A stretch of DNA of 26,634 nucleotides from Funneliformis mosseae. Taxonomy: Eukaryota > Glomeromycota > Glomeromycetes > Glomerales > Glomeraceae. The stretch lies in NCBI GenBank assembly GCA_910592005.1, contig CAJVPP010000758.1, positions 1 through 26,634 on the forward strand, in the 5' to 3' direction. The notes below the pieces were generated by a model. The model saw only the letters and a list, made by a program, of their open reading frames with translations. It made no database searches and was not told the DNA's origin. Of this stretch, positions 69-26,634 are shown piece after piece. Made by a program: the position numbers and the translations under genes. The stretch's first letter is position 1. Each line of letters opens with the position of its first letter.

Positions 69-75
<7 letters not shown>

Positions 76-88
76 AATATATATATAT

Positions 89-6075: not shown

Positions 6076-6798
6076 TGAATTTTGAAATTTACTATATAGA
6101 GCTACATTTTGTAATTTTGAAAATTTTTTTATTTGTTTTTGTTTTTTTTTTTTTTTTCATTGTTATAATGTTTGGTAGTAAAATGTTTTAAAAAAGTTCT
6201 ATATATGCCAAATATTTTTAACCAAGTTTGATCATCTTTTGTAAATAATCATTGTATTTATGCAGTTGGGTGTTATGACGCGTTTAATGCATTGAAGAAT
6301 TTAACTTTTATTCATTCTCTTTTGTATCATCATCACATACATTTCAATTGATCTTTCACAAAATCAGATTTTTTTTTTTTTTTTTTTTCCTGCAATGTTA
6401 AAAAAAAATTTTTTTTCAATGATGACGTTTCAAAGTTTCAGCTAATCATTAAAATGAAAAAAAAAAAAAAAAAAAAAAATTTTTTTTTCTTATATATTTA
6501 GTACTGTAGTCTGATTGTCAGATGTTCAAACAACATTGAAGTGTTTTTCTGTACGTACACAAAAAAAAAAAATTTTTTTTTTTCTGTATCTTTAAAATTT
6601 AAAATTTTTCAAGAAAAAAATTTTTTAATCTTAGATATTTTTTTCTCTTAGATTTGCATAAATCGTTTAAAGGCATTTGTGGAAGGATCAAAGTAAAATT
6701 TTTCATCAATTTTTTTTTTTTTTTTTTTTTTATATTATGTTTTATGATGAAAATATATTGAGTGATTTAGTTCAAAAATAATTTTAATCATAGGCTCG
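6076..6798. other. intergenic region rich in A/T homopolymers
   Basis: This is the 3' flank of the transporter and the 5' flank of the F-box gene. It contains several T or A runs of 12-24 nt (for example around 6369-6388, 6457-6479 and 6711-6730), some back to back as A-run then T-run, which could form hairpins. No ORF, RNA gene or clear promoter motif was recognised. Confidence 0.6.
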
Positions 6799-8319
6799 AT
6801 GTATTCTTCTTCACTTCCAACTGAATGTCTTCGTGAAATTTTCGAGCATGCGTACGAATATGATGATTTAGAAACTTTAGGTTCTTGTTTATTGGTAAAC
6901 AGAAAATGGTGTGAGGCTGTTATCCCCGTAATGTGGAGAAATCCTTGGGTATTATCTTGGTTTAATTGGAGAGAGAAGTCAACTAGATCAATAACCAGTA
7001 CGATATACGCCCTATTACCTCCTGACATAAAGATTGCCTTCATAGTTAATGGTATATCAATCACACCCCCGACGACAAGGGTCCCCTTATTCAATTATGT
7101 TCAATATATTCAAGTATTGGAATATCGACACATTAAAGGGTTGATTCATGGAGTATTCAATCATGAACTTTATAATTCATTGAATATCAATCATAATCTG
7201 ATGTACATCGAAAGGTTACTTTACAATTTTTTCTTGGTCAATTCAAATATCAAATACTTTGAAATCCCTCGGTTTCCCTTATTGGGTATAACCGCCCCAA
7301 TAAATTGCTTTTCTGGATTAAGGGAAATTACGTGTGATGCGGACATTTCACCACAGATTTTCAAGGATTTGGAAAAAGTTTGTACTAGCCTAGAGAAACT
7401 TATCATTAATAAAGCAATCGTTGATAATGAAGGGTTGGCCTCTTTCATTCATTTTCAAAAAAGGTTGCAATATATATCAATGTGTGATAATGTGAATGAT
7501 GAGGCGGATTCTAGAAAGGTCGGAAAGAGCTTACATGAGATCTCCTTGTTGTACGTTCATTTTCGCGGTCAAATCTTCTTTTCACCAAAGATATTGGCAA
7601 AATTTTCAAATTTAAAGTTATTGAACCTTGAATTGTCCGCGGAGAAACCTATCATGTTACATGAATCTTCTAATTTTCCGGTACTAGAATTCCTGGAAGT
7701 GATTTATGATAGGTTCACTCCTTATAAAATTTTCACATGTATCATTAAGAGAACCAAAGGAATGCTCCGTAGGATCGCCATGAATGTAATTGAAGAACCG
7801 CAAAGTGAAAGGGAGGCGAAGGATTATGTGTTGGCCATTGCGGATCATTGCCCAAAGATTGAATTCGTCACAATTTGGTATAAAGAAGGCATTTATGACG
7901 CTTTGGAAGAAATGTTCAAGAAATGTCAAAGGTTGGAGGGTATTAAATTGATAACCGTTGAAGATATTAAAACTTTGCCATTATTGGAATTTTTGGCAAT
8001 TAAAGCTCCCAAATCATTGAAAATGATTAATTTGAGTAGTATCGGAGAATTTTTTCATGGGAATATGGGATGGGAATTTTCACCTTTAGACTTAACAAAA
8101 TTTTTTGAAATGTGGAAAGGGCGTGAATTGCTTAATTTTTATATTTCGGATGTTAAGGGAAATTTGACAAGGGAATGTGTTAAAACTTTACAAAAATATT
8201 TACGTCATGATAAAGTATTGAATAGTTGGGAAGAAATTCAAATGTTGGAAGATTCTGAAGATATCATTAATGTTTGGGAAACATATGAGTTGTGGATGAC
8301 TGCAGAATATAGAGCGTAA
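6799..8319 (+). CDS. F-box protein, intronless, probable SCF ubiquitin-ligase adaptor
   Basis: A 506-aa uninterrupted reading frame. The N-terminus (res. ~5-47: SLPTECLREIFEHAYEYDD, then LGSCLLVNRKWCEAVIPVMW) is a typical F-box, which binds Skp1 in SCF complexes. The rest has leucine-rich, LRR-like segments (SNLKLLNLELS, FPVLEFLEV, LEKLIINKA, LPLLEFLAI) likely to form the substrate-binding part. No membrane segment or signal peptide is seen. Single-exon F-box genes of about 500 aa are a very large, poorly characterised family in Rhizophagus-type genomes, so the target is unknown. The ATG at 6799 starts right at the F-box, and there is no in-frame alternative nearby that would lengthen the domain. 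Its richer G+C content compared with the flanks and its intact frame argue for a functional gene. Confidence 0.9.
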   Translation: MYSSSLPTECLREIFEHAYEYDDLETLGSCLLVNRKWCEAVIPVMWRNPWVLSWFNWREKSTRSITSTIYALLPPDIKIAFIVNGISITPPTTRVPLFNYVQYIQVLEYRHIKGLIHGVFNHELYNSLNINHNLMYIERLLYNFFLVNSNIKYFEIPRFPLLGITAPINCFSGLREITCDADISPQIFKDLEKVCTSLEKLIINKAIVDNEGLASFIHFQKRLQYISMCDNVNDEADSRKVGKSLHEISLLYVHFRGQIFFSPKILAKFSNLKLLNLELSAEKPIMLHESSNFPVLEFLEVIYDRFTPYKIFTCIIKRTKGMLRRIAMNVIEEPQSEREAKDYVLAIADHCPKIEFVTIWYKEGIYDALEEMFKKCQRLEGIKLITVEDIKTLPLLEFLAIKAPKSLKMINLSSIGEFFHGNMGWEFSPLDLTKFFEMWKGRELLNFYISDVKGNLTRECVKTLQKYLRHDKVLNSWEEIQMLEDSEDIINVWETYELWMTAEYRA

Positions 8320-8422
8320 GAGCTTTCAAATATTTTATCATTCACTTTTTTACTTTAAAAAAAATTATATTTAAAATGAAATCTTTGTGTTTAGGCGTTT
8401 TAATTCTCCACCATTTATGTAA

Positions 8423-8458
<36 letters not shown>

Positions 8459-8674
8459 ATATTTTATAGAATTCTTAAAATTTGTTAAAAAGAACTTCAC
8501 AATTGTTTAAAAAGAGAGAAAAAAAAAGGAAAATTTAAAATGTCAAAACAAAGCTTTCCAATTGAAACTATTTATTTTTATGCGAAACGGATACTGCGCC
8601 GAAACTTGATAATTTTCTTACGCCTCATTACCTCATTTACTATCCCACGATAGAAGGTTTTTTTTTTTTTAAAT

Positions 8675-8705
<31 letters not shown>

Positions 8706-9142: not shown

Positions 9143-11121
9143 ATGAGTCGTACAATACTTTCTTTTCAAAAATTAAATTTACATCATTTTATTACAAAAT
9201 CGTTTAAAAGAAATTATTCATCATTAATTTTAATTTCAATAAGAAGACCTTCATCGGCTTATTATTCTTACAAAAATAATTATAATTTTTTCAATTCAGC
9301 AATATTATCAAGGTTACAGTTGAAGATACGTTCATATTCAACAGGTTCTTACCTTATTTATTTTTTATTTGATGGTTTAAATAATTTATTTATTTTTTTA
9401 ATTTTAAATTAATTTTTTATCTTTATAAAAAAAGAGACATTAATAAACCCTAAAATTCATGAAAAATTGGAAGGATTAATAACTCGTCATTCTTCACTAT
9501 CCGAGCAATTATCTAAACAAGTTGGTACCTTTATTAAATAGTATTTATTATCATATATAATTTTTTCAAATGTCTCATTTTGTCTTATAAAGTTATCATC
9601 AAGTGATGATCCAGATTGCTTGGCAAAACTTTCTAAAGAATTATCAGATTTAAGTGAGATAACCGATCCTTATAATGAGTTAAGAAAAGCACAAGGTGTA
9701 GTATAACCTATTAATTACGCGACTCTTTTAAGGAAAAATGTAAAAATATCTTTACTAAAAAGAAATAATATTATAGGAACTTGAAGAGATTAATACTATA
9801 TTACAAGAAACAACAACTACAAAAGAAGAAGAATTGAAAGAACTTGTACAAGAGGAATATCAAGAATATTTAAAAAAAATAAAATTACTTGAACAAGAAG
9901 TAGTACAAGCTTTATTACCAAAAGATTTAGCTGATGAAGGAAGTGCCGTGATTGAACTTCGAGCTGGTAAGTTAATTAGCCAATTTTTTTTTTTTTTATA
10001 AAAAAACAAAGAGTGACTTATGTTTAAATTTTATGTAGGAACCGGAGGAGATGAAGCTGCGTTATTTGTCAATGACATATTAAAAATGTATGAACGATAT
10101 GCGGAGTTACGTAAATGGAAATTTGAAATCCTATCCAAATCAGAAGATCATATTGGAGCTGTTAAGGTATATCTACAATTATATTATCTTATTAAATGAT
10201 ATTTGAATTAATTAACTATTTATCTTTGAATAGGAAGTTATAGCTACGATATCAGGTAAAGGAGTATTCGGTAATATGAAATTTGAATCAGGGGTTCACA
10301 GAGTACAAAGAATTCCTATAACAGAGAAAGCTGGTCGAGTGCACACAAGCACAATTACAGTTGCAATATTACCAGTTCCATCTGAGGTATTTATCAAAAT
10401 AAATAAATATTTTCAAATTCAAATGATATTAATTTATTTTTTTTTTATTTTTTTTAGACGGATGTAAAATTTAAAGATTCGGATTTGCGCACAGATTATT
10501 ATAGGTCAAGTGGTAAAGGAGGACAACATGTCAATACAACGTCTAGTGCTGTTAGAATAACTCATATTCCAAGTGGTCTTGTAGTGGCTATACAAGACGA
10601 AAGATCTCAACCAAAAGTAAGTTATTTAAGAAATTATTTTGATAGAATTTATTTGTTTTAACTTGTTGTTTCATTTTTTTTAACAAAGAATAAAGCGAAG
10701 GCATTACAAATTCTGCAAGCAAGATTATATGATATGGAACGAAAAAAATTACAACAAGAAAGAAGAGAAAATAGAAGAAAACAGGTGTGATTCCTTAAAA
10801 TAATCTTTGTTACTTTCTAATTAGCTTCAATTAGCTAATTTTTTATAATTGTTATAGGTTGGATCCGGTGAAAGATCTGAAAAAATAAGAACTTATAATT
10901 TCGCACAAGTAAGTTAATATTTCATTTATATTTTACATTTAACTTGAGTAATTTAAATAACTTAATTTAAATAACTTATTTAGAATAGGGTAACTGATCA
11001 TAGAATTAATTTAACATTATATGATTTGAATAATATATTAAATGGTGAATCATTACAAGTTGTTATAAATGAACTTAAAGTACATGATCAAATTGAAACA
11101 TTACAAAATAATGAAATTTAA
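9143..11121 (+). CDS. MRF1: mitochondrial class-I peptide chain release factor (RF1 type), ten exons
   Basis: Recognises UAA/UAG in the mitochondrial ribosome and releases the finished chain. Exons: 9143-9344, 9435-9520, 9593-9700, 9777-9966, 10039-10166, 10234-10386, 10458-10616, 10689-10784, 10858-10908 and 10984-11121. They give 1311 nt (436 aa), normal for mitochondrial RF1. The first ~65 residues are Arg/Ser/Lys/Tyr-rich with almost no acidic residues, a mitochondrial presequence ending near RSYST. The PCRF domain follows, with a long Glu/Lys helical region encoded by exon 4. The stop-codon reading tripeptide PxT is Pro266-Ile-Thr268 within [14 protein letters not shown]. The catalytic GGQ is 310-312 in [10 protein letters not shown], with Lys rather than the usual Ala before GGQ. 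The tail is basic. Introns 1 and 2 use GTT donors (GTTCTT, GTTGGT), fixed by reading frame. No defect was seen. Confidence 0.93.
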
Positions 11122-11454
11122 ATGATTATAAAGATTACATTTTTTTAAGTAATCTTACAATAAAATTTTTTATAAAAATTATAAAAATTATTAAATTAAT
11201 TTTAATTAAAATAATAATAATAAATTTTAATTAATTATAAAAAAAAAAAGTATTTTTGAATTTTTAAAATTAATTTATAATAATATTTTATTAATCATAT
11301 TTATTTTTTATTATTTTATATAATATTTAGCAATTAATTTGATTATATCAAAATTTTAAGTCATTTAATTATAATTTTATTATTATATATTATAAAATAA
11401 GTAAATTTATTTATTATAGAAGGCAATACTTCTTATATATCACCTTTATATATA
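11122..11454. other. A+T-rich 3' flank of the release-factor gene
   Basis: Composition shifts within about 50 bases of the stop codon to nearly pure A/T words (taaa/ttat). No ORF or motif was recognised. The pogo-type relic starts at 11,455. Confidence 0.6.
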
Positions 11455-11477
11455 CAGTTAATCTTCCATATAATCAC
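11455..11477 (+). repeat. left terminal inverted repeat of the pogo-type relic
   Basis: Begins CAGTTAATCTTCC and continues to ATAATCAC at 11,477. The reverse complement of 14,661-14,683 begins TAGTTGATCTTCT and ends the same way. TA precedes it at 11,453-11,454. Differences are C/T, A/G and C/T. Confidence 0.85.
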
Positions 11478-12459
11478 ACCTGTTAGGATTACACAATGCT
11501 ATGATTATATAAAAGTATGCTTATAAATAGGTAATTTTTATGAAGTTATAAAAATATATATTAAAAATTATGATATAAATTTTTATAAAAAATTAAATTC
11601 TAAAGTATTGTTATGAAAAGATATAAATTAACAGAAAATTAAATTCTATAAATAATTGTTCTAAACAAAAAATAAGCAATTATATTACATAGGATTTAAA
11701 CAAATATGTCAGATAGAAATACGTAAGGAATTGTGATTTGTAGGTTAAAGAAAAAGCTGTTTAATTTTATTTAGAATAAAAATAGAAGTAATTATATAAG
11801 AATAGTAAAAAATGAATTAATAAATAAAGAGTAAATTTTAACTTTGATTCTATAAATCTTCTACTTATCTTAATTTTTCTATTTATAAAATAATTATAAA
11901 AAATTACATAATAGTATTGTTATATTGTTACTTCTAAAAATCTTTTAGAATTATCAAATGAGATTGGTAAAATAATAAAAATGTTTATCATGATGAGTAT
12001 AGCCAAAAAAACTATCATAATTATTATATTAAATAAATCTAATATAAACATTATAACATTTATTATTAGAAATTTATTTTTTTAGTTTAATAGTATAAAA
12101 CTTTTATTATTCAAATCAAATTATGCTTTATCTTAATATTATAAAATAAATCTTTCTAAATATTTAAAAATTATCAAGTGTATTTTGTTTCAATAAATTT
12201 ATACTTTAACTTGTTATATAAAGATACTTTTAAATATATATAGATTATTAATATTAAATTAAGAATTATTACTTTACTATTCAAAATATTTAATAAATAT
12301 TTTCAAAATATTAGTTTAACTGTTCTATTAATACTAAGGTATTTCTTTATCTGATAAATATTCATTATTCTCTTTATTTTCTTCAGATTACATAAGATTT
12401 ATAATTTGTTTAATAAGATAGCCTTTTATTAAATGAAAAAATCAAATTATTCTTATACT

Positions 12460-13930
12460 TTATTATTATTTGATATATTATAAAAGAAATTTTCAACTTT
12501 TTCTGAATTAGATTCTTGCATATCTAAATTATCTATATTTATACCACTTATAATATCATCTATATTTTTATTAGGAAATAGAAGAATATTAGTTTTAGAC
12601 TATTATTTTAAATAGTTATTACTATTACATTATCACATACTTTAGCAATATACTCAATTACTTTTTTAATATTTAGATATAAATATTATAAATATTTAAT
12701 TATTTTTTGTAATATTTTTTTAACTTACCCTTCTATATTTATTTCTTTATCAAAATATCAGATCAAATGTTTACAAAATTCTTTTTTATATTTTGCTTTA
12801 AAACTGTGAATAATATCTATATTTATGAATTGAAGATAAGCAGTAATATTAGAAAAAAAGGTAAATAAGCTTAATATTTGTAAGTTAATATTAAAATTTT
12901 TTATTTTGATTTTCTTTATTATTTATTATAAATTTTTTTTTTAAGCCAAAGATGATGATTTAGCAATATTATTTCATTATTATCAAAATCTTTTTCATTA
13001 TTAAATAGTATATTTTCACTAGAATTTTCAAATCTTTTTGAATGAAAGTAAGATCTAGTATTATCAATAATAAGAAGAACTTACTGATCTATTATATAAA
13101 ATCAATTATTAATATTATGATGCTAATTAATAAATATATCTGATTATATTTAAGTTTTTGAGTTAGCACAATAAGTAACAGAAAAAGATAACTTATTAAT
13201 ATTTTTAAAATAACAGAAATTAAGTAATTTTTTAAAAAAACTTTGAGAACTAATAGTATTAGTACATAAAAAAATTAAAAGCTGATTTTTATCCTAAATT
13301 ATTATTATATAATATAGTTTATAATTAAATTAATTGTTTTTAAATTAAAATTAAAATTAATAAAATTTAAATAACTTTACCTTTTTTTAACCAGAAATCG
13401 CATTTATATTAAAAAGTTTGATTTAATTTCATTTAATAAAATAAATCTATCTTATCAGCATTATAAATGTTATTTTTATAATTAACTAAAATTTTTGTAA
13501 TTGTAAATGTTTTTGATAAAATAATTAATAAAGTATTATTAATTTTATTTAAATAATTAATTTTATGAAAATCATTCTATTGCTTAAATTTTATACATAT
13601 TCATTATCACATTTCATTTAATTTTTAAGATTTAATACCTTTGCAAATTCTATATCTTTTCTTATAATATTGCATCACTTAAAGAAATACTAGCAACTAT
13701 CACCTAACTAGTCTAAATTTATATTATTTTATCAAATATTAAAATATTGATAAAAGGTATATAATGTTTGAATAGTAAGCTATTTATTCTGATTTTACTA
13801 TATTTTAGTGATTATTAATTTATTAAGCTTATAATCAAAATATTTTGTATTAAAATATGAAGCAACATTAGCTTGTTTAATATTTTTATTTGCTTATATA
13901 TATTCACAAATTTCTTTTTTACTTTAATAT
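12460..13930 (-). pseudogene. pogo/Fot1-like transposase (DDE) pseudogene
   Basis: Read from high to low coordinates in broken frames, the landmarks come in the right order. At about 13,780-13,920 is the CENP-B-like helix-turn-helix N-terminus (KKEICEYI, stop, ANKNIKQANVASYFNTKYF). At about 13,400-13,470 is the first catalytic Asp region (NIYNADKIDLFY, stop, MKLNQTF). At about 13,050-13,100 is the second catalytic block (VLLIIDNTRSYF, then SKRFEN). At about 12,790-12,880 is the block expected to be LPPNTTxxLQPxDxGII, here LPFFSNITAYLQFINIDII followed by HSFKAKYKKEFCKHL. At about 12,470-12,560 is an Asn/Asp-rich C-terminal tail. Stops fall where Arg, Gln or Trp codons are expected, and Pro reads as Phe, which fits C-to-T and G-to-A change. 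Several frameshifts are present. Boundaries are approximate. Confidence 0.8.
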
Positions 13931-14660
13931 TAACAAATGTACAAAATTTTTTTTCTTATAATAATATTATAATAATAATATAAAATTTTAAAATAAATTT
14001 AAAAATTTTATTGTTAGAAAAATTATCTCAAATTCTTCTAAGAAATTTGAAAGAAAAATTCAGAAAACGTAAAGATAATTTTAATTTAAAAAAATATTAA
14101 AAAGAAGGAAAACAATTTTAATGATTTATATTATTTATATAAATAAAATTTATATTTTATAAATTTAATTTATATAAATTAAAATTTAAATTTAGAAAGT
14201 AATTTTTATAATAAAATATTACTCTAAATTTTATATAGGCTTAAAATTTTGATATTATTTTTTTTAGAAAAGAAGTTATAGAAAGGAAAAATGTTTAAGA
14301 ATAAATTTTTTTGAAAGAATATTATTTTTTTTTTTAAAATAAGAGAAATATTTTCTTTAACAAAATAATATTTTATTCTATTAAAAATAGTATTCTAATA
14401 CTTTATTTTTTTTTTAACTTATAAGATATCAGAATTTATTTATCAGATGTAACTGTATTAGAATTATAAAATTTTCAATAATTAATCAATGATTATATAA
14501 AGAGTAATTTTATATAATTATTATTTAATTATTATATACTAATAATTTTAAGTAATAGTGATTATAAAATAAATAAAACTATAAAAGAAGTAATTTTTGT
14601 ATTTAAAAAATTAGGACTAAATAATGATATGACTAAAAAGAAAATGTGATTATATAGAAG

Positions 14661-14683
14661 GTGATTATATAGAAGATCAACTA
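14661..14683 (-). repeat. right terminal inverted repeat of the pogo-type relic
   Basis: Mirror of the left repeat with 20/23 identity, followed by TA at 14,684-14,685. The inner 14-15 bases of this end are present a second time just inside it (14,646-14,660), a short subterminal direct repeat of the kind transposases often bind. Confidence 0.85.
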
Positions 14684-15289
14684 TATCTAAATTCAATATA
14701 AAAAATTCAAAAATTAAATATTAAAAAAATATTTTAACTATTTTTATAATTTTGTAATTCTTTTTATTATATTCATTAAATTTTAAATCAACTAGTACAA
14801 ATCATTTTTAAATTCATTATCTAGTTTACTAATTTTTATTTTATCTTCATGATAAACAATTTTTCATTATTTTTTTTTTTTATTTTATTTAGATAAAGAA
14901 TCATAATTAAATAACAAATAATTAAAATAATATCAACAGCATTTTATAAAATTATAATCTATTTAGTATATGTAGAATAAAATGGTTTTTTATATATTTT
15001 ATTAATATTAATTGATATATTTTTAAAGCTATCCAATTTTAATAATATTGTCTTAATTTAAATTTAAATCTTTTAATTTAAGTTTAAATTAAATATCTTT
15101 TTAAAAAATCTAAACTAAAAAAAATTAAGAGTTACTTAATAAATTATATTGATTTTTTAATTTCATTATTTATTATTTATACAATATTAATTAGTCAATT
15201 TTCTAAAATATTTAAGTCTTTTTGTTTTATCATCAACATATAACTTTTTCAGTAATATATATTATTGCTTTTTTTCTTTTATTAGAATG
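14684..15289. other. A+T-rich stretch between two relics
   Basis: Nearly pure A/T sequence with no ORF of 60 codons on either strand and no motif I recognise. It may be the eroded continuation of the minus-strand relic that begins upstream at about 16,100, or a separate decayed repeat. Confidence 0.4.
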
Positions 15290-16100
15290 ATGATGAATAT
15301 TATTACCTAAATTTTCATAATATGAATAATAGATATATTATTGCTGTTTAATATTATCAAAACCCATTTGCATATAGGTAGACATACTCGTAATACTTCA
15401 CATAAATATTGCCTAATATATAGTATTAAAACATTTTGTTTATTCAATTTTCAAGAGTATATTATGCATCTCATATCTTGAGAAAAAAAGTAATATATTT
15501 ATTACATAAAATACAATAATGTTATTGAATAATACCTTAATTAAAGTCTTTCACTTGTTTATTCTATAATTTATGTAAGTACTTATTATCAAATTGAAAT
15601 GAGAATCACACATGCCTAGTTTTGACAACATATCATCTACTTCTTTAATTGCTTTTCTATCAACTTGCCATGTATTAAATAAGTTTTGTAATTGTCTTAA
15701 TTTTGTTTATTGCTTCACATCATTGAATTTTACTTAAACAAAATCAATAACAATGCATAATGTAAATCTATATTTTTTATATAATAATAATTTTATCTTG
15801 TTCTTCAAATGTTTCATAATTATTTTTCTCATTTCTACTTCAAAGTCTTTTAAATTTTGCCATTTATCTTTTGATTCCAAATAATCTGTAAATGTAAAAA
15901 AAAAACTTAACAATTACAGAATTGTATTTGTATTCAGTAATCTGTCAAACTTGCATTTGATTATCTTGTAAGTTTTTAATTGCATTATTCTCAATGTATT
16001 AATATATATCATTATTATCATTATTGAATATTTCATTATAATTTTCTAAGGATACTTTTTGTTATTCAAACTGATCAAAACTTATTTCATCATTATCTGA
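15290..16100 (-). pseudogene. decayed protein-coding relic with Cys/His motifs, unassigned family
   Basis: On the minus strand from about 16,098 a single frame runs for some 60 codons (DNDEISFDQFE, stop, QKVSLENYNEIFNN ... NLQDNQMQV, stop, QITEYKYNS). The three internal stops lie where Gln or Trp would fit. A probable intron (donor GTTAAG, acceptor TTTACAG) follows. Then come DYLESKDKWQNLKDFEVEM, a long block with LRQLQNLFNTWQVDRKAI, KEVDDMLSKLGMCDSHFN, a one-base frameshift into FDNKYLHKL, stop, NKQVKDFN, a CxxC pair (HYCILCNKY), and GQYLCEVLRVCLPICKW in another frame. The pattern (CDSHF-FD, CxxC, C-x3-LRVC) recalls a lineage-expanded family I have seen in Rhizophagus-type genomes, possibly zinc-binding. 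I cannot name it. The lower boundary is uncertain. Confidence 0.6.
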
Positions 16101-16515
16101 AAAAAAAAAATGAAGGTGGTGGGAAAGGATTTTCGTACTCTTGTTCTGAAATTACGAGTTTTATGTTTTTCTCAGTTAAAGTTAACTAACTTCAAAGGTA
16201 AGATGCATTTTTGTATGTTGTAATATAGTCAAAATTTGGGACTTATGAAAAAAATACTATTTCGTCATAGGGTTAGTTCGAATCTTTAAAGATTTTTGTG
16301 ATTACAAAAATTTTGCCAATTTATAGTGCAGTTGAGGATTTTAGCATTTTAAAAAGAAATTTTGATCGGAACATGAATTGATATTAATATTCTTTATTGG
16401 TATATTTCAATTGGATATAAAGACTATTTCTTTTATATGTATTATTAGGACAAGCCTTAGCATTCCTTATACTTTATTCCATTAAATTATAAGATTGTAA
16501 TTATTGTGAAAGAAT
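16101..16515. other. boundary segment, 3' flank of the Hsk3-like gene
   Basis: Composition changes abruptly at about 16,100 from the A/T desert to ordinary sequence. The segment has no ORF. A short tRNA B-box-like string at about 16,270 has no partner A box. Confidence 0.5.
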
Positions 16516-16976
16516 TCATGAGTTATCATTACGCATGATACGATTCGCGGCCATAAAACTAAAATAAAGCAAGCATAAATGATATAGAATAGGCTGAATT
16601 GACAAAAAAAAAAAAAATTTTTTTTTTTTTATGTTCTTACTTACATAGCACCATGAGCTAAACCAAAGCTTTGAATATTTTTTAATTGATTTGTTGTTAG
16701 TTCTACATTTTCTTCCAAGTTTTTCATATTTTGTTGTAATCTAGACAATTGATTATTTAATGAATTATAAAGACGTCGTTTCGCTAAAGTATGATGATTA
16801 TGATCAATGCTAGTTTGATTTAATTGTGCTGGTTGTAAAGGAACTTGTAATTTTGACTGGGGCCTTTTAAATGTGTTGAGGGTAGTATCCATGGGTTTTG
16901 GGGTTTTGAAGGTTTTGACGTGAAAAGACGCGAAAGAAAAAAGATTTTGGTTTATCATGGGTTTCAGAACATACAT
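16516..16976 (-). CDS. HSK3: DASH/Dam1 kinetochore complex subunit Hsk3-like, two exons
   Basis: A small subunit of the DASH ring that couples kinetochores to spindle microtubules in fungi. Exon 1 is 16,976-16,645 and exon 2 is 16,558-16,516. The intron has donor GTAAGTAAG and acceptor TTTTAG, and the joined frame is 375 nt (124 aa). The core (res. ~68-115) is one amphipathic helical region, RLYNSLNNQLSRLQQNMKNL then EENVELTTNQLKNI. It matches the Hsk3 pattern of Q/L-rich coiled coil ending in a Gly-x-x-His-x-x-x-FMAA block. Without splicing the frame would stop at Met111; splicing restores GLAHGAIFMAANRIM and ends RNDNS. The N-terminal ~65 residues are low-complexity and longer than in yeast Hsk3 (about 70 aa). 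Translation could therefore begin at Met7 or at the later Met in PMDTTLNTF. Family assignment rests on the C-terminal pattern. Confidence 0.75.
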
Positions 16977-17622
16977 GATTGGCTGGACATGGTGGAACGT
17001 ACAACGTCCATATAAGGCGTATTAATCCACATTGAACATGAATCCCATTATTATCAAATTAATTTAAAATTAGTTTGTTTATTATTATATTAAAATTTCT
17101 TGTATAAAGAGTATTGAAATTATATAAACGTTTCTGAATTTTTTTGATTATTGAAGTTTCGTTTTCAAACTCTTTTGATCAAATTACATACGTTGAGTCC
17201 GAACTCTCTTTATTATAATGAGATGTTTGGAATTGTGTTTTGTTACATGATTTAATTAGTAAGGTGCAATCGAATGTAAAAATAAAAAATTTTTTTCATA
17301 AATATATTCTTGATTAGTCACTATAACTAATTAATATATGAGCTTTAAATTCTTCGGTTGTTCCGAAGACATTACTTTATCACCACGATAATCAAATTCT
17401 AATAAAAGAGTTTGAATGGAATATAAACCAATCGTAGATATAATAATAAAAAATAGCAATAGTTTTATAGGTTCAAATCCCTAACTTATAAATTAATAAA
17501 CCCGATTAAATAATTTGAGTTAAAAACGAATAGATGACTAAGTTGACAACATAAATATTACATACCAATGAATAAAATTTCCAAAAAAAAAAAAAAAAAA
17601 GCTTTTTCTCATGTTCAAATAC
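16977..17622. other. intergenic region between Hsk3-like and DLST genes
   Basis: Contains the promoter side of the Hsk3-like gene and the 3' flank of DLST, including an A run at about 17,583-17,600 shortly after the DLST stop. No ORF was seen. The string GGTTCAAATCC at about 17,471 resembles a tRNA T-arm, but no tRNA can be built around it. Confidence 0.5.
17008..17017. promoter_or_regulatory. CArG box (CC(A/T)6GG) upstream of the Hsk3-like gene
   Basis: The sequence CCATATAAGG is a perfect match to the consensus bound by SRF/Mcm1-type MADS proteins. It lies 31 bp before the start codon of the minus-strand Hsk3-like gene. In yeasts Mcm1 sites control mitotic genes, so the location is suggestive. 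The same bases could also serve as a TATA element. Chance occurrence is possible. Confidence 0.3.
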
Positions 17623-20006
17623 TTAAATACTTAGCAATAGACGACGAGGGTCTTCAATCTGTTCCTTAATGGTTTTCAAAAAGGTAACAGCTTCACGTCC
17701 ATCAATCAAACGATGGTCATAAGTTAAAGCAACGTACATCATTGGACGAACTGTCACCTATTAAAAGACAGATTATATTAAATTTACTTTTCGAGAATAA
17801 AATTAATTATATAATAGTTACTTAAATACCTGGCCATTTACTGCAATAGGGCGTTCTTTGGTAACATGCATCCCTAATATCGCACTTTGTGGCATGTTGA
17901 TAATAGGAGTACCGAATAATGAACCATATACTCCACCATTTGAAATAGTGAAAGTACCTCCAGCCATATCTTCAATTGTAATTTTTCCATCTCGGGCCTG
18001 AAATTTAGAAATATCGATTGAATCAAAATTCTTACTGAATTGATACTTGAAAAATATGAAAATTTTATTACCTTTTTACCTAAATCAGCGATTGCCTTTT
18101 CGACCTCAATAAAAGATAACAAGTGAGCATTTCGAACAACAGGGGTAACAAGACCTTTTGGTGTAGCAACCGCAACACTCATATCAACGTAATCTCTATA
18201 AACTATGGTATCTCCACCATCTGGACCTTCAATAGAAGCATTGACCACCGGAATTTCTTGAAGTGCAAATACAGATGCCTTAACAAATGCAGACATAAAA
18301 CCAAGTTTGATGCCATGTTTTTGTAGGATTAGTTCCTTATATGTGTTACGCAGGTCCATAATATTACTAAATTAATATTTAATATATGTAGATTTGAAAT
18401 GTTTGAATATCTTATTATTATTATTCATATCATTAACAAAAAAATTTTGGTTAAACCTCATATCAATTTCATTGAAGGTTGTCAAAGAAGCGGCCGAGTT
18501 TTGTGATTCTTTCAGTCTTTCGGCGATACGTAAACGCATTCTATTCATCTTTACCTATTAATGATGATGATGATAAAGGGAGAATTTAATAATTATATTA
18601 TGCAATTTTCACATTTTTTCGAATAATGCATATATATATATACATGACGTTCTTCGCGCTCACGATCACCATATAGAGAATCTTCTGATTTTGATGGGCG
18701 TGAAGGTGTAGTACCTTCGGACTTTGATGATGGCGAAGTTGTAGTTGGTTTGGAGTCTATTAAATAAAATGCGAAAGGGATTATTATTTATTATTTGGGA
18801 AAAGGAAAATTATTAGATTCATTACCGGGTTTTGATGATGTCGTTTCCTTTTTTGATTCCTGTTTAGGTTCTTTTTGCTCTTTTGGCTCTTCCTTTTTAG
18901 ATTCTTCCATTTTCTCTTTGGGCTCTTCCTTTTTCGTTTCTTCCTTTGTAGTTTCAAGCTCCTCTGCTTTCATTATTTAACCAAGGTTACGTGACGAAAT
19001 AATATGAGTTGTACACGAAATCACAAACATACCTTTTGCCGGAGCCTCACCCAATTCAATTTTGTAAAGATCTTGATCTACACCCACAGATTCCTCTTCG
19101 TTTGCATATAATTCGAGTATTGTACCAGAATATGGGGAATTAACAGGAGCATCGATCTGCATGATAAAAGAACATGATTATGAAGTAAAATTGAATATTG
19201 ATATAAAAAGAAAAAAAAAGAAATTATTTCAGAATGAATTGATTATACCTTATCGGTTTCGATTGTTGCAACTTCCTCATCTTGCTGAACGAAATCGCCG
19301 ACCTCTATTCGATGTAAGGAAAGTAGAAATATGATTAGGTAAGATATAAAGACAAGAAAATAATTTAAACAATTTACATATTTTACAAAAATTATAAGAA
19401 ATGACATTACTTTTATTCCATTTCGCAAGAGTGCCTTCTTTGATTGATTCGGCCAAAGCAGGAACTTTAACTACCTTGCTGACTATTATTTTCAAATTTA
19501 TAATTAATTATGTAGAGGCAAATCTTTCAAGTACCAAATAGAATTAACAATACTTACCGTATCCTCGAACCTGTATCCGTTTAGCAAATAATTTTGGCAA
19601 TGAAATATTTCTGAATGATAAATAACCTGAGAATCAGAGCGCGCAAATCACCTCCATATCGCTTTTGCACAAAACATTTAAATCAACAACATTTCCTCCA
19701 ACCACAAATAACATAATTGTAAAATTTGGTTTCGAATTCCAATTTTATAATTTTTATGTCAATTATTTGGTAACTGGAATAGGGAGTTGTTGATATATTT
19801 TTAAGTTGATTTATAAAAGAGGCCAACCTTATGATGTTTGATTCATTTGTATAAGTCCCCATAATAATAGGGTGGAGATTTCGCTGCTGCATTAAAAACG
19901 GTTTTTGGACAGCAGGAGTTATTTTTGACACCAACTTGGTATTATAACGCAAAGAACACATAGAAGAACGATTGGACACAGCTTTCCATATAACAGCCAG
20001 ATGCAT
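17623..20006 (-). CDS. KGD2: dihydrolipoyllysine-residue succinyltransferase, E2 of 2-oxoglutarate dehydrogenase, mitochondrial
   Basis: E2 core of the mitochondrial TCA-cycle complex; it moves the succinyl group from the E1 product to CoA by a swinging lipoyl arm. Exons (minus): 20006-19828, 19610-19558, 19482-19411, 19304-19249, 19156-19033, 18966-18826, 18756-18644, 18554-18457, 18366-18072, 17997-17830 and 17757-17623. They give 1434 nt (477 aa), close to the family norm. Residues 1-~80 are a basic mitochondrial presequence. The lipoyl domain reads [20 protein letters not shown] to IETDK, with the lipoylated Lys120 as the last codon of exon 4. A Lys/Glu/Pro then Ser/Thr-rich linker (exons 6-7) replaces a clear peripheral subunit-binding domain, as in other DLSTs. 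The catalytic domain ends with [12 protein letters not shown], active-site His448 and Asp452. The exon 1/2 junction (donor GTTGGC, acceptor ATTCAG) is the least certain, and the exon 6 acceptor may lie one codon further in. Confidence 0.93.
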
Positions 20007-20303
20007 TTTTAAGTCTTGCTGCCTTGACGCGTTAAATTAAAAGTTTAGAAGATAAAAAAAAATCAAATTTGCTGATATTATATGAAAATGAATTGATGTA
20101 TGTTGTATGGTTGTGATACCTCAATATCTAGCAAATTTAGACAATTTAAGTATCATTACTAATTATTTTTGTTGAATGATTTACTGATGATCTGTTGTTC
20201 CATTCGAAATCCTATATCAATTTTCTTTTCTAAAGATCGCGAAAAAAAGATTCAAAATCAGATAACAAATTTAAATTTTAAGGTTACCATTTTTGGGTTA
20301 ATA

Positions 20304-21365
20304 TTAGGGATGGAAGACGGCGATCCGATCATATGACCGATTTCGGTCCAATCTGAAGGTTAGGATTGGATTGATTATGTATACTAATTAAGATCCGGAT
20401 AAAAACTAGAAATAGGCAAGATCCGGAAACAAGTAGATAATTTACCTAGAGATCGACTCGATTTTTGAGCGGGCAATTTTTATCAGAACATTTGCATTAG
20501 AACTGTCGGAAAAATCAATTTTACTTCTATATGGCAAATCTGATTAATTAGGTCTAAATATGTACAGATTTAGCATTAACCCATTTTTTATTTTCCAGCT
20601 GTTTCCCCCTTTCTATTGCAAAGGTCCCATATATTATTTAGAATTTTTTTTTTTTTTTTTTTTTTTTACAATTTGATCCTCTTTTCTCAACATTCATAGA
20701 TATAGTAAATCGTATATTCCCGCATAATCATTAGGTTGATAAAATAGACAATGACACGTGATTATGCACAAAAATAAGTGATAATTATAAAGAGAAAGGT
20801 TTTGATACAGCAGCATTTTCAACCTCTCATTGACAAATTTTTAATATGATTCGATAATGTGTTTCTTTTATTTTGGACGCGAAAGGAATCTAAAAATAAA
20901 ATAAAGGCATAAAAATTATATGTTTCCAAAAGAATTTCGAAAGAAAATAATTCTAAAAAATTAATGTTATTACCCTAAACAAGAAGGGCTTCTTCGTCGC
21001 ATGATTTTTTTACAATATCATCATTTATACTTAAGTTATTTCATAGCAAAAGAATCAGAACAATTGTGTTATATCAAAAATGACCATTCAATGATTCGGT
21101 TTGTATTGACAAATATACAGTAAATATATATTTAAAAAATAACAAGCTCCCGTAAAAGTTGAGATTTTTCTCCTGTTTTATTTCATGATTTGACGCTTCT
21201 TTAGTCTTAAAGAAATAATTTTTTTTTTCGTTTGTAAATAAATAAATAATATATTTCGATCCTAATACCGGTCTAAAAGATCGATCTAAAAATCGATCTT
21301 AAAGATCGCCTTCGCTCCAATCTCACCCCGCTAAAGGACGGACGGAGATCGGATGGATCGATCAA
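20304..21365. mobile_element. possible GATC-rich non-autonomous element
   Basis: The left edge (about 20,304-20,400: TTAGGGATGGAAGACGGCG then ATCCGATC) and the right edge (about 21,258-21,365) are much richer in GATC, CCGATC and GGATC words than the surroundings. The reverse complement of about 21,302-21,330 partly matches the left edge (GATTGGAGCGAAGGCGATC against GATGGAAGACGGCGATC). The left edge also contains a hairpin (20,347-20,370). The first MITE copy lies inside. The inverted match is imperfect and no target duplication was seen, so the element is tentative. Confidence 0.3.
20483..20629 (+). mobile_element. MITE copy 1, TA-flanked, about 147 bp
   Basis: Shares with copy 2 (21,807-21,959) the same order of conserved blocks: TCGGAAAAATCAATTTTACT, CAGATTTAGCATTAAC, then CCTTTCTATTGCAAAGGTCC at the right end. 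TA occurs directly outside (20,481-20,482 and 20,630-20,631). Its left terminus has decayed (CAGAACATTTGCATTAGAA where copy 2 has GGGCCTTTACAATAGAA) but is still aligned. Confidence 0.7.
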
Positions 21366-21806
21366 TAACAATTGCTAGAAATATTCCATGTTCTATTTTG
21401 TCTTACGTTAGATAACGATAACAGAATGATTTGTAGAAAACAATGGGGGGTTTTTTTTTTTTTTTTGATAATCTTGCAGTATCATTGTCTCATTTGGATT
21501 TATAATGATTTTTTATTCTTAGTATCTGCGAGTTTCAAATAACGAACGCGTCCTATTTAAAAGATCCAAATTGATATAAATAGATTTTAAAGTGATTATT
21601 CTGGTAACGAACTGATGTTGCACGATTTGTACATGTCGATTTTATAGGATGTTTGACTTTTTTTTCTGACAAAAAAAACATTTTTTTGCTCTCTCTCCAT
21701 CAATGTACAATCACTGCAGCTGCCCGTGAGATCCTTCGATTTTAAGATTACCAGTTCTAAAAAATTTAAAGGGTCAATTATTATTTAACTTTCATTTGAA
21801 TACATA
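20630..21806. other. non-coding segment between the two MITE copies
   Basis: No ORF or RNA gene was recognised. It contains T runs (about 20,647-20,667 and 21,451-21,466) and the GATC-rich patch at 21,258-21,365. Composition is less extreme than the deserts to either side. Confidence 0.45.
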
Positions 21807-21959
21807 TGGGGCCTTTACAATAGAAAGGAGGGAGTCTGCCGGAAAAAAATCAATTTTACTTATGCCAAATATGATTTTCATGCTAAAATATATTCAGATT
21901 TTAGCATTAACTCATTTTTATTTTTCCTGGCAGTTTTCCCTTCTATTGCAAAGGTCCCA
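21807..21959 (+). mobile_element. MITE copy 2, TA-flanked, about 153 bp with terminal inverted repeats
   Basis: The left end TGGGGCCTTTACAATAGAAA and the reverse complement of the right end TGGGACCTTTGCAATAGAAG are imperfect inverted repeats. They extend inwards to the GTCTGCCGGAAAAA / CTGCCAGGAAAAA match, about 43 bp in all. TA is present outside both ends (21,805-21,806 and 21,960-21,961). TA targets and this small size fit a Tc1/mariner-type MITE mobilised in trans. It has no coding capacity. Confidence 0.8.
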
Positions 21960-22332
21960 TATAATCCTTAGTTCTTTCTTTTCACATAAAAGTACAATTT
22001 TGAAAATTTTTTACTTACAATAAAAAAAAAATGCTCAATAAGATTTATCTTAAAAATTTCTCTAATTAGATATTGTTTTAAAAACTATAGTATATATATA
22101 CATTAACCCAATTTTTGTTGAATTGGTAAAATATTTAAAGAATAAATTGATAATATGATAATTTGATAAAATAACAACCTGTTTAACAAGTTGCTTAATT
22201 TACTTTAAAATTAGGATTTATTTTTTGATATAAAAAGGGATTGAAAAAAAATAAATCAAAATATGATAGTTATTGATTTACTATTATTTTTAATATAATA
22301 TAAATATCAATTTATATTATTAATTTTATATA

Positions 22333-23950
22333 CAGTCCTGTCAAAGTAATAGTAGATGGTTTTTAACTTTATATATGCAATTTTATAGTAAATGTTTTTA
22401 AAATAAAGATAAAAACCATAGCTGTAACTTTATTAAGTAATTAATATTTAGTATGTCTTCCATCTGCATTAATATATGCTTAAATTCAATTTGATGCAAT
22501 TAATTATTACAGAATTAAGATTATCCTATTCTTTACAAATCACATTAATAAAAATTTTAGAAATTTTCTTTTTTTATGCTACCATTTTTTAATTTTTTAA
22601 TTTTTCTTTATTGTAATCAACCATTTTCAATCAGGTTAAGATTTAAACTATAAAAAAGTTAAGAAAAAATCTGATTCAAAATGTAAGTCTTTAAGTCTTT
22701 TTTAACATTATGGGAAATATGTTTCATGTCATTATCTTACTAAAAAAATTCAGTAATAATCTAATTAATTATAAAAATGATCATCAAGAATTTTATAATA
22801 CAAATAGAAATAAAAATAGTTCTATTAATTTCATTACATTTTCTTTTCAGTTTTACTTTGACTCTTTTTAAGTAAATTAAACTTTAAATATTAAGTTAAA
22901 TTTATATTAATAAAACATCATATGATGCTCATTTTAAAAAATTTTTTGACTAGTTATTCAAACAAATTTATTTTATTATTATTTTTAATTTGATGATAAT
23001 CCAATTTTGAGCTAACTCTTAAAATCAGTCTGAAATAAGTTTTGATTCAATTTTTAAAATAGGTAAAAAATGTTTTATAATTCAAAAAAATCCAAAATAT
23101 GCTAAATTTATTATCACTTTTAAAACTGATTCAGAATTGCTCTTTTTGAATAATTCTTATTCCTAAATATAAATGATGATTAAGAATTTTTGTAAAAATA
23201 TATATATTGATTTTTTTTTTGATATTAATTACAGTTTAATATACATTTTGAAAGAATGTTTAGCCTTAAATTAAATAGGATTTCTATTATTAGATTATGT
23301 AAAAATAGTATTATAAAATATTTAAATTAAAATTTTATTTAAAAACTACTTTTTTCTAATTATAATATAAGTAATTATAAATTTAAGATAAGTAATTGTC
23401 TTTTACTTTTTGAGTCAAGAAAGAAACTTTTAGAAAAAAACTGCTATATAATTAATATTATAAAATTATCATTAAATAGTCATTTTGCTGACTTCTAAAT
23501 TTGTATTTTTTCTTTAAATATGGTCTTAAATTTTTCTATTATAGTGAAATGATTATACTTAATAATCTTTTTGATTTAGTAGCATTTTTGAGATCAATTT
23601 TTATAATCGATTAAGTTAATAAATATCAGAAATATTATTATTCTTTCGCAAAAAAATATTTTTCACAATAGCTCAAAAGACTCTATTTTAAGTAAAAATT
23701 TTCTTATATATAAATATTCTTATCTTAAAAGAATTCTATAACTTTATGATTTATCTTTATAAATATTAATAATATTTTAATATCAGTAAGTAAAAAATAT
23801 TTTCTGAAATATTTTTTTATTTATTTATTTTTTAAATAAATATTCTATTATCTAATTTAGTTTAATCAATAATGATAAAATCAAGATAATAGAGATACTG
23901 CAGTTAAAAAAAAATAATAATATTTCTACCACTATTACTTTTAGAGATCG
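22333..23950 (-). mobile_element. decayed Tc1/mariner-type transposon, about 1.6 kb
   Basis: The left end CAGTCCTGTCAAAGTAATAG looks like a Tc1-type TIR and follows TA at 22,331-22,332. The reverse complement of the right end (about 23,925-23,950) has the identical 11-mer AAAGTAATAGT at exactly the same distance (10 bases) from its outer TA at 23,951-23,952; the outermost bases have diverged. A decayed transposase ending just inside the left TIR reads on the minus strand. Length fits the family. The whole element is stop-dense and A+T-rich. Confidence 0.8.
22441..22740 (-). pseudogene. Tc1-like DDE transposase pseudogene, C-terminal half
   Basis: From 22,736 to 22,617 one frame reads DNDMKHISHNVKKDLKTYIL ... 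YSLNLNLIENG, stop. This is the second catalytic Asp block (expected DNDPKHTS) and the SPDLNPIENxW block, with Pro-to-Leu twice, Asp-to-Asn and Trp-to-stop. About 170 bases further, in another frame, the C-terminus ends AYINADGRHTKY with a TAA at 22,441-22,443. It is preceded by ATT TAA and AAT TGA, where relatives have Ile-Gln and Asn-Arg (CAA to TAA, CGA to TGA). At least one indel separates the two frames. The N-terminal half upstream to about 23,900 was not resolved, so the relic probably extends further. Confidence 0.8.
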
Positions 23951-24899
23951 TATATTATAAAATTATAATTTTACTTTTATAATTTATTTTATTATCAAAA
24001 ATTATTTAGTAAAAATTGCAATAATAAATAAAATAGAAATATAGATACTTTGTAGTCAAAAAAAAGAAAATTTTAAAAACAAATTATTTAAATTAATATT
24101 AAATTTTTATTTTACTAAAAAATTGTATTTAGTTTATAAAAAATAAATTTTTTTAATAGTTTTTTTTTTTTTTACAATGTATTTATAAATTCACAATAAT
24201 TTTAATATTTTAAAAAATTAAAATTAAATTTTAATAAGTTTAGTAACTTATCAAAACTTTTTTATTATTATTCTTACTATTATTATAAACTTAATAAAAA
24301 TTTTAAAATTTAATATATTATTAATAATTAAATAATAATTAAATTTGTAATATTATAATAATTAATAAATTAATTTTATAAAAATTACATACATATTCAG
24401 TTAAATATATAATAAATATAAATATATTAATAAAGTATAAAATATATTTCAAAACTTTTAAAATTGTATAAAATTAAAAAAATACTAATTATATATGCTT
24501 TTATAATATTTAAAATTACTTATTAAAATTTTTTTCAGAAAATTAATTTAATTTTTAAATATTAAATTTCATGTGATTTGATAATCTTTTTATTTTTTTT
24601 CAAAGTATTTTATTAAAATTAACTTTGTTTAAAAATTTTTTATAATTTTTTAACTCTTAAATAAAATATAAAGTTTATCTTATTTATTAATAAATAAAAT
24701 AATATAATTTTATGCAATTTTTATTTTTAAAAATAATTATATTTTAAATCGATTTGTATTAATAAACTATTGAATTTCAACCTAATAAAATACAAAAAAA
24801 TATTTAATTTAAAGCTCTAAATAATTTAGATTAATTTAAATTTTTCAATACAATTTTAGATTATATAAAAATTAATCTAAATATTTTAGATAGTTTATT
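23951..24899. other. A+T desert between the Tc1 relic and the minisatellite
   Basis: Nearly pure A/T with no ORF of 60 codons and no motif recognised. It may contain further decayed repeats too eroded to identify by eye. Confidence 0.4.
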
Positions 24900-25357
24900 T
24901 CTAAATAATAAAATATTATTTAATAGAATAATTAAATTATTATTCATTAAAATGATTAATATTATTATTTTAAATGAATAATATTCTTATTATTTACTTA
25001 AAATAATAAAGTTATCTTTTCAAATGAATAATAAGTATATTATTTTAATTGAAATAATTTGAAATTATTATTTCATATGAATAATAAGAATATTATTTAC
25101 TTAAAATAATAAAATTATTATTTATTTAAATAATTTAAATTATTATTTTAAATGAACAATAAAAATATTATTTAATTGAAATAATTAAAATTATCATTCT
25201 AAATGAACAATAAAATATTATTTATTTAGAATAAAATTATTTTAAATAAATAATAAAAATACCTTTCAATTAGAATAATTTAAAATTATCATTTCAAATA
25301 AATAATAAGAATATTATTTAATTAAAACAATTAAAGTTATTATTTTAAATAAACTGA
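24900..25357. repeat. A+T-rich minisatellite, unit about 51 bp, about eight diverged copies
   Basis: The word AAATGAATAATAAGAATATT or a close variant recurs at about 24,972, 25,022, 25,075, 25,150, 25,201, 25,244, 25,296 and 25,347. Spacings are mostly 50-53 bp (one 75, one 43), and there are related partial units from 24,901. Each unit also contains ATTATTTAATTGAAATAATT-like sequence, so units are internally palindromic. Differences among copies are mostly A/T swaps and a few transitions. Confidence 0.75.
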
Positions 25358-26438
25358 ACTTTTAGATTAATCTTAAATTTCAGTTTAATTCAGATTTTTA
25401 CTAATTTATAATTCAGTTTAAATTTAAATTAGTCTATAATTTAGATTAGATTAAACTATTTATAATATTAATTTGGCTGTTAATTTTACAAAATATCAGT
25501 TATATTTTCTTTTGAATTTTATTTTATTTTAATATATTTTAGCTAATTTTTAATATATGTTAATCAAATATCAATTAGCTATAAATAAGATAGGTTAAAT
25601 TTTAGCTAATTCTTTATATATATCAATTAGTTATAATGCTAATAATTTAGATAATAATATAAGATAATAAAAAAAAGTTATCATTTATTAAATAAAAAAT
25701 TTAAAAGCTAATAAATATGATATTTATGCTTTATTTCTTCTTTTAAATATAATTTATATTAATATCTTTATTATATTTATTTTTACTTAGTTAGTCAATT
25801 TATTTTATTATATAATAATAAAAAATATTATTTTGATTAATTTAAATTATGTTATTTATTTATTATAATAAATAATATAGTAAAATATTATTAATTATAT
25901 TGTAGACTATTATTAAAAAAATCAGGTAAAACTATTTGTGAATGTAATTTTTTGTTAATAATTTATATATTATATATTTTTAAAAACTATTTATTAATAT
26001 TTTTAATTAAAAAATTTTTCTAATATTTTTTTTTTTAAATTAGTAAAATTTAATTAATCTGATAAAAAATTTATCACAAAATAAATTTATCAATAGAAAA
26101 ATAATAAAATAATAAAATATTATTATTAAATCTACTAAATTTTTAAAATAAAATTTTTTTAATTTTTTTTTATAAGTTAGAATAATTTATAAGTATAAAA
26201 ATTTTATATATTATTTAACTATTTAATTCTTTATATTTTTAAAGATAAAGTATAGTATTATTTTATTTTTTAATATTTTATCTCTTAAATAGTAAGTATA
26301 AAGTTATTTATAAAATATTTAAAAAATTTATAATATCTTGATATCTAATAATTATAAAAAAATAAAATAAAATTTATTAGATTTATCATATTATAATATA
26401 TCTAATAGTAGTATTTTTAAATTTTTAAAATTAATTTT
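25358..26438. other. A+T desert after the minisatellite
   Basis: Continues as A/T-only words. Around 25,355-25,460 are several TTTAGATTAA/AGTTTAAAT-type imperfect repeats. No gene, RNA or clear mobile-element end was seen. Confidence 0.4.
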
Positions 26439-26440
26439 TA

Positions 26441-26569
26441 GGAAAATCAGGTTCCAAGAAATTTTTGATTAAAATTAAATGCTTAATACATTTTAATCTA
26501 ATAACATCAAAAACTATAATGCAATAAAAATTTCAATTTTACTAAAAAATTTTCAGAATCTGATTTTCC
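26441..26569 (+). mobile_element. 129-bp TA-flanked MITE-like palindrome
   Basis: The left end GGAAAATCAGGTTCC and the reverse complement of the right end GGAAAATCAGATTCT are inverted repeats. They stay alignable for about 25 bp, mostly with transition differences. TA lies directly outside both ends (26,439-26,440 and 26,570-26,571). It has no coding capacity. Size and TA target fit a Tc1/mariner-type MITE, different in sequence from the pair at 20.5 and 21.8 kb. Confidence 0.7.
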
Positions 26570-26634
26570 TAGTAATTAACCCATATATTAATTTTTTAAA
26601 TTTTTAATTTTTATCTAATAATCACAAAAATATA

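Follow-up and report, generated by a model that had tools for sequence, protein, structure and literature searches.

Cytosine-specific decay of transposon relics in Funneliformis mosseae, probably through 5-methylcytosine deamination that extends beyond CpG sites

In the arbuscular mycorrhizal (AM) fungus Rhizophagus irregularis, most transposable element loci are reported to be highly CpG-methylated (PMC8647823), and 32.5-49.5% of cytosine was reported as 5-methylcytosine (5mC) by measurement (PMC8298701). A CpG-only mutational signature accompanied by a Masc2-like DNMT1 and no RID is described for three Basidiomycota (Microbotryum, Melampsora and Puccinia; PMC4352252). For Zymoseptoria tritici a Dim2-dependent mitotic mutation is reported, in which >98% of C>T changes fall at CpA and methylated CpG is spared (PMC8016269). 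Here we describe a 26,634-nucleotide stretch of Funneliformis mosseae (contig C758, hereafter the window), which carries the relics of a pogo-type transposon, a Tc1-type transposon and a repeat labelled "Cys/His" (Table 1). The damage in all three relics is real and consists mainly of C:G to T:A changes on both strands. In the open-access literature searched, mostly at title level, we recognised no report of C>T decay of AM-fungal repeats.

A sequence-only reading of the window had claimed that transition-type damage was common to the three relics, and the comparison with genome copies bore this out. Through searches of the fungus's own assembly (82 Mb, 4154 contigs), we found that the relics represent three families, each multi-copy in the same genome. 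DNA matches, window included, numbered at least 59 for positions 11430-14000, at least 56 for 14000-16120 and at least 60 for 22300-24000; each search scored 40 candidates, so these counts are lower bounds. Substitutions were counted with direction on both strands, as C in the copy to T in the relic against the reverse. Compared with L049, the least decayed copy fetched, the Tc1 relic showed 139 against 20 changes in its second part and 47 against 11 in 22331-22803. The pogo relic showed 215 against 73 when compared with L010, and the Cys/His relic 53:34, 65:44, 83:32 and 64:35 when compared with L081, L082, L083 and L084. When the pogo relic was set against copies of equal AT-richness, the direction was even or reversed (L011 41:73, L012 40:53, L013 85:108, L020 14:12, L036 6:10), and for relatives at 64-70% identity to the relics the raw transition/transversion ratio (ts/tv) was just 1.0-1.5. 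In these comparisons old age conceals the signal.

The Tc1 set comprised 20 copies (19 fetched and the window copy, after five duplicate loci were dropped) and formed a graded series, from 0.30 GC with 19 CpG (L049) down to 0.13 GC and no CpG at all. The share of cytosines that read T was 12-26% in the seven least decayed copies, against 0-2% that read A, and it was 42% against 4% in the window copy. Of the columns, 20 have CpG in two or more of these seven copies, and there the window copy contains no CG, one TG, five CA, ten TA and four other dinucleotides. By three polarising rules, ts/tv at sites of C:G origin was 10.7, 15.1 and 17.4 in 12 Tc1 copies (the strictest rule leaves 125 C:G sites) and 4.3, 6.4 and 7.9 in seven pogo-type copies; at sites of A:T origin it was 0.70, 1.29 and 0.70 in the former and 0.48, 0.70 and 0.48 in the latter. 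Since the transition excess appears at C:G but not at A:T sites of the same copies, it is cytosine-specific, and this A:T control rules out a general transition bias. A roughly neutral ratio had been named beforehand as evidence against the damage; at C:G sites the young copies are nowhere near it. When singletons were polarised by the second Tc1 subfamily, hardly any columns but A:T ones remained. From the C>T and T>C rates of the 12 Tc1 and seven pogo-type copies, with transversions disregarded, GC would settle at an end point of 3-8%, close to the 0.09 of 24000-26634.

Set against L049, 19 copies contained 90 in-frame stops among the 1,886 codons compared in two Tc1 coding pieces. Solely C>T or G>A in CAA, CGA or TGG codons (Gln, Arg, Trp) is needed for 82 of these stops, and more is needed for eight; all seven in-frame stops of the window Tc1 relic came from Gln, Arg or Trp codons by the same changes. 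The proposed origin of the stops is thus confirmed for the Tc1 frames, which this count covers. None of the seven Tc1 copies examined had a long open frame, and the longest open stretch was 107 codons. The mismatches of the terminal inverted repeats had also been described as C/T or A/G, which was not confirmed. The pogo relic ends form an imperfect inverted repeat (11436-11477 and 14661-14700, flank included; alignment score 44 vs ≤30 in 200 shuffles) with four transitions and three transversions, and the Tc1 ends, with a score no better than shuffles, have one transition and three transversions.

Along the window, GC content was 0.08-0.20 in the relic blocks vs 0.22-0.35 elsewhere, and the observed/expected CpG ratio was 0-0.26 vs 0.80-1.41. 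With expectations from shuffling within 300-base bins (500 shuffles), CpG numbered 4 vs 28.7 expected in 11121-16130 and 4 vs 19.3 in 21966-26634, and none of the 500 shuffles was as low in either block. The values were 257 vs 236.8 in 1-11120 and 143 vs 129.9 in 16131-21965. In the non-coding DNA without repeat match inside the stretch between the relics (16980-17600, 20010-20487 and 20666-21776), CpG numbered 64 vs 43.4 expected at 0.28 GC, and the 150 four-fold sites of the single-copy F-box gene had 0.32 GC. These two controls rule out a regional A+T skew. The damage was therefore rightly claimed to be limited to repeats, and the same skew in unique intergenic DNA, which would have spoken against it, is absent. 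Unique DNA is judged here on its CpG and GC content. The range given for the damage (11455..23950) also holds undamaged genes and intergenic DNA (about 16208-21776).

The sequence context of C>T was taken from 37 alignments (83.5-99% identity, ≥250 bases, satellite loci having been excluded in advance). Reduced greedily to 12 alignments without overlap (10 locus pairs at 83.5-94% identity, with 1347 transitions and 163 transversions), the set gave the C>T per copy, with 95% intervals, as 0.44 (0.36-0.60) at CpG, 0.22 (0.18-0.26) at CpA, 0.23 (0.16-0.32) at CpC and 0.11 (0.09-0.14) at CpT. The bootstrap ratios were 1.77-2.37 for CpG/CpA and 1.66-2.30 for CpA/CpT. The order was thus CpG > CpA = CpC > CpT on both strands, CpG being the fastest decaying context and yielding TpG, CpA and TpA. 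The Tc1 columns gave a similar order, with counts of 127/297 at ancestral CpG, 114/373 at CpC, 142/538 at CpA (columns where none of the 20 copies shows a G after the cytosine) and 45/355 at CpT. An alignment-free comparison was in agreement, the observed/expected ratio going from mostly unique non-coding DNA to the relic blocks as follows: CpG 1.32 to 0.18, CpC 1.29 to 0.94, CpA 0.97 to 0.99 and CpT 0.81 to 1.16. In the least decayed Tc1 copies as many as 13% of the CpT cytosines already read T, with C>A and C>G together at 0-2%, so CpG loss alone is insufficient for the A+T content. The earlier claim of changes on both strands is right.

We looked for a CHG effect in the 12 alignments and found none (CAG 0.227 vs CAH 0.226; CTG 0.092 vs CTH 0.110), and this lack of difference between CHG and CHH rules out CHG-type methylation. 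A preceding G slowed cytosine decay outside CpG, to 0.118 vs 0.18-0.21. C>T damage was equal on both strands of the Tc1 copies. Strand agreement of adjacent events had p values of 0.05, 0.054 and 0.076 in three of 12 copies, the window copy among them, and of at least 0.60 in the other nine; some clustering along the element appeared, at p 0.004 for the window copy and at p 0.036 for L049. Editing by a single-strand cytosine deaminase of the AID/APOBEC type was rejected, as the 12 copies have no consistent strand-coordinated C>T runs.

A check for RID- or DIM-2-type methyltransferases had been proposed. The PF00145 profile matched five pieces on four contigs, of which four pieces were read. 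The piece at C671:3529-3702 is DNMT1-like (best PDB match DNMT1, 9.8e-18); it is a C-terminal piece, the central catalytic piece not being among the matches, and C671 also carries, in the same orientation, an RFTS domain. A maintenance methyltransferase is thus present in the genome, in pieces. The pieces on C132 and C3651 are DNMT2. Contig C3347 carries two open exon-like pieces of a second, DNMT1/DIM-2-like gene. The first piece best matches 9baq/9bap (DNA methyltransferase, up to 1456 residues; 1.4e-13), which we take to be Neurospora DIM-2, and next DNMT1 (1.7e-11), and the second matches DNMT1 chains only (4.1e-5). The check thus yielded DNMT1 and DNMT1/DIM-2-like pieces, while RID and DNMT5 were not identified among the four PF00145 pieces read; RID, reported to be without part of this domain (PMC4352252), could escape this profile.

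Considering these results, we think that the repeats are probably methylated by DNMT1-type enzymes and decay through 5mC deamination, non-CpG sites included. Long repeats would be marked by cytosine methylation, the CpG part of which would be maintained by the DNMT1 with RFTS domain, and other cytosines would be methylated at a lower level, probably by the second DNMT1/DIM-2-like enzyme. Methylated cytosines would then deaminate to thymine during ordinary mitotic growth. A copy starting near 30% GC, a value suggested by the least decayed copy, would lose CpG first, next CpA and CpC, and CpT last; it would drift toward the end point given above, and Gln, Arg and Trp codons would become stops. 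The decay and its context order, the retention of CpG in unique non-coding DNA and the enzyme pieces are observed here, whereas methylation of the repeats in this species, its role as the cause and the enzyme acting on non-CpG sites are inferred. CpG-first decay predicts CpG-poor pieces at normal GC, and two pieces resembling miniature inverted-repeat transposable elements (MITE) in the undamaged stretch have CpG 2 vs 7.1 expected (P 0.013) at 0.28 GC.

Several observations weigh against methylation-linked deamination. The CpA and CpC rates, half that of CpG, exceed what would follow from CpG-only methylation. In Zymoseptoria tritici CpG is reported as spared though methylated, so the methylated context and the mutated one may differ (PMC8016269). 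The short repeat at 16246-16507 had no measurable CpG depletion (3 vs 3.7 expected), so the decay is not shown by every repeat. As for kinetics, one result is in favour of the deamination: across the 20 Tc1 copies, C>T and T>A rose together (Spearman 0.94; the same seven copies serve as reference for both, and one Tc1 subfamily is more distant). C>T per transversion, however, dropped with age from the youngest to the oldest of eight bins (451 non-independent pairs), from 54 to 7 at CpT and from 99 to 9 at CpA. The youngest bin is a single pair (L022/L031; 153 transitions, 7 transversions), and the drop without it is from 27 to 7 and from 59 to 9. A constant-rate simulation left both ratios nearly flat. 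The drop could come from transversions accumulated on active master lineages, from site-rate differences, from the selection of alignable pieces, or from an early burst.

The sequence-only reading had offered repeat-induced point mutation (RIP) or 5mC deamination as explanations. A RIP or RIP-like process, in which duplicated DNA would be recognised and its cytosines mutated in a pulse, premeiotic or mitotic, by a RID- or DIM-2-dependent route, is in our judgement unlikely. It agrees with both-strand C>T and stops in repeats, with CpA mutated twice as often as CpT, and with C>T per transversion being highest in the youngest pair and falling faster than constant rates permit. The TpA/ApT index is also somewhat raised in the relic blocks (0.84-1.02 vs 0.63-0.95 elsewhere), and RID and DIM-2 homologues are reported in AM fungi (PMC8298701). 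However, CpA as dominant target, the classical RIP trait, was not found in the 12 alignments; CpG came first and CpC equalled CpA, so the damage is not classical RIP by context. The substrate index (CpA+TpG)/(ApC+GpT) stays at 1.03-1.57 in the relic blocks and is not lowered, and damage across copies is graded rather than all-or-none. RIP signatures were reported as undetected in Gigaspora margarita (PMC8647823), and a kingdom-wide survey reports CpA-preferring RIP as active in few clades (PMC12543289). Of the two explanations offered, classical RIP therefore fits poorly and methylation-linked deamination fits better, and that interpretation as a whole is partly supported.

What is unusual here is the decay of non-CpG sites together with kinetics that seem front-loaded. 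AM fungi were for long regarded as asexual, and RIP is reported to be lacking in them. We might speculate, with little confidence, that they run their own repeat-directed mutator, a CpG-first, front-loaded C>T attack in all contexts on new copies that would slow as copies diverge, in mitotic nuclei and via DNMT1/DIM-2-class enzymes, not RID.

A general deamination of cytosines in heterochromatin that replicates late and is poorly repaired, methylation being responsible for the CpG excess only, appears quite improbable. It would suit the involvement of every cytosine context, the lack of a CHG effect and the lowering of the rate by a preceding G, which methylation does not obviously explain; yet CpA and CpC decay at twice the CpT rate, so context matters outside CpG too. 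Ordinary A+T-biased mutation with relaxed selection, in which dead copies are free of coding constraint and selection merely holds genes and promoters at higher GC, is very hard to credit given the GC and CpG content of non-coding DNA without repeat match, the four-fold sites of the F-box gene and the absence of a marked transition excess at A:T sites of the same copies.

Table 1. Features of the window
Feature	Position	Strand	Remarks
Pogo-type transposon relic (about)	11436..14700		GC 0.14; genome copies; CpG 3 vs 17.4 expected
"Cys/His" relic (label of the sequence-only reading; known here as a repeat)	15153..16207		Genome copies; CpG-poor to ~16120; CpG 1 vs 8.2 expected in 15153-16000
Tc1-type transposon relic, first part	22330..22805	-	Genome copies
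Separate ~360-base repeat inserted in the Tc1 relic, splitting it	22806..23166		No CpG vs 2.6 expected
Tc1-type transposon relic, second part	23167..23942	-	Genome copies; copy-C to relic-T 139 vs 20
Extremely AT-rich repeats	23950..26634		GC 0.09; include a satellite of ~50-base period at 24947-25350
Single-copy F-box gene	6700..8400	+	Control for unique DNA; genome matches are itself and one 31-base match
Stretch between relics: Hsk3-like and 2-oxoacid dehydrogenase acyltransferase genes, intergenic DNA	16208..21965		Pfam; internal control; short repeats within

Five pogo copies (on C91, C150, C912, C3447 and C4148) overlap DDE_1 (PF03184) matches. The best of 152 such matches, most of them listed with internal stops, lies in a stop-free 369-codon open frame (L001, C1391:9004-9531). 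A single relative of the Cys/His relic, on C759, aligns on to 16207, past the CpGs at 16134 and 16155. A sharp damage border at 16120, where the query ended, could thus not be shown. The Tc1 identity is presumed from a motif in the C-terminal coding piece on the minus strand of L049, together with the naming in the earlier reading; Pfam gave no match for three coding pieces of L049. The repeat that splits the Tc1 relic has its own copies at 78-82% (L053, L060, L065, L066, L067) and is unmatched in other Tc1 copies. GpC exceeds expectation in the pogo relic (observed/expected 1.94) and in the Tc1 relic (1.47). The DNA at 22068-22329, which adjoins the Tc1 relic, is AT-rich, CpG-free and without repeat match, with just 1.3 CpG expected, too few to judge spill-over. 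The satellite has no CpG (~1.5 expected), and related arrays in L026, L078 and L079 have an observed/expected ratio of ~1.5-2.9 at 0.16-0.21 GC.

The own-genome copy searches covered the window apart from 1-6000 and 17600-20010. All matches of 8330-11120 were <90 bases, and 16980-17600 had no repeat match. The undamaged stretch contains short repeats, namely the tail of the C759-like repeat, a family at 16246-16507 (>20 partial matches, 70-96%) and MITE-like repeats near 20488-20665 and 21777-22067. The latter measure ~165 bases, at 21804-21965 (33 further copies listed, 82-85%) and ~20501-20634. The notion that short repeats escape the decay (observed/expected CpG 1.1-1.5 in L012, L021 and L072) was dropped, the MITE-like pieces being CpG-poor and 16246-16507 not. 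Three open frames of the window had Pfam matches (F-box-like, 2-oxoacid dehydrogenase acyltransferase and DASH Hsk3-like), and Rfam gave no match anywhere in the window. The F-box protein (6799-8316) shares 97% identity with its match in Funneliformis geosporum and 82% with that in Rhizophagus irregularis, which marks the source as an AM fungus.

The decay accounts for the AT-rich blocks of the window and is a measurable mutational footprint, in AM fungi, of what is likely to be transposon silencing. Its context order differs from that of Ascomycete RIP and from the CpG-only signature of some Basidiomycota, and it makes non-CpG methylation by a DIM-2-like enzyme testable in an old, obligately symbiotic lineage. 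It also suggests that CpA-based RIP scans would miss such decay, and that transposon ages uncorrected for it would come out too old.

Among described systems, Rhizophagus irregularis belongs to the same subphylum, and its repeats are reported as methylated and a DNMT1-related protein as expressed; those reports describe the mark, whereas we describe a mutational footprint (PMC8647823, PMC8298701). The three Basidiomycota resemble Funneliformis mosseae in transposon C>T with CpG first and on both strands, and in a DNMT1-type enzyme in the genome, as far as described (PMC4352252). Here, however, the CpA and CpC rates are half and the CpT rate a quarter of that at CpG, with relics down to 0.09-0.20 GC, and the TpCpG preference reported for Microbotryum (PMC4352252) is not seen, TCG having the lowest rate of the four NCG contexts (0.39, 12 alignments). 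Zymoseptoria tritici, as reported, shares a DIM-2/DNMT1-class enzyme and C>T in transposon regions with no need of sex, but in our case CpG is the most mutated context (PMC8016269). RID-dependent RIP of Neurospora also turns C:G to T:A in repeats, puts stops in transposase genes and leaves AT-rich relics; the decay in Funneliformis mosseae is unlike it in starting with CpG, in affecting CpC as much as CpA, in its graded damage and unlowered substrate index, and in a genome where RID was not identified among the pieces read.

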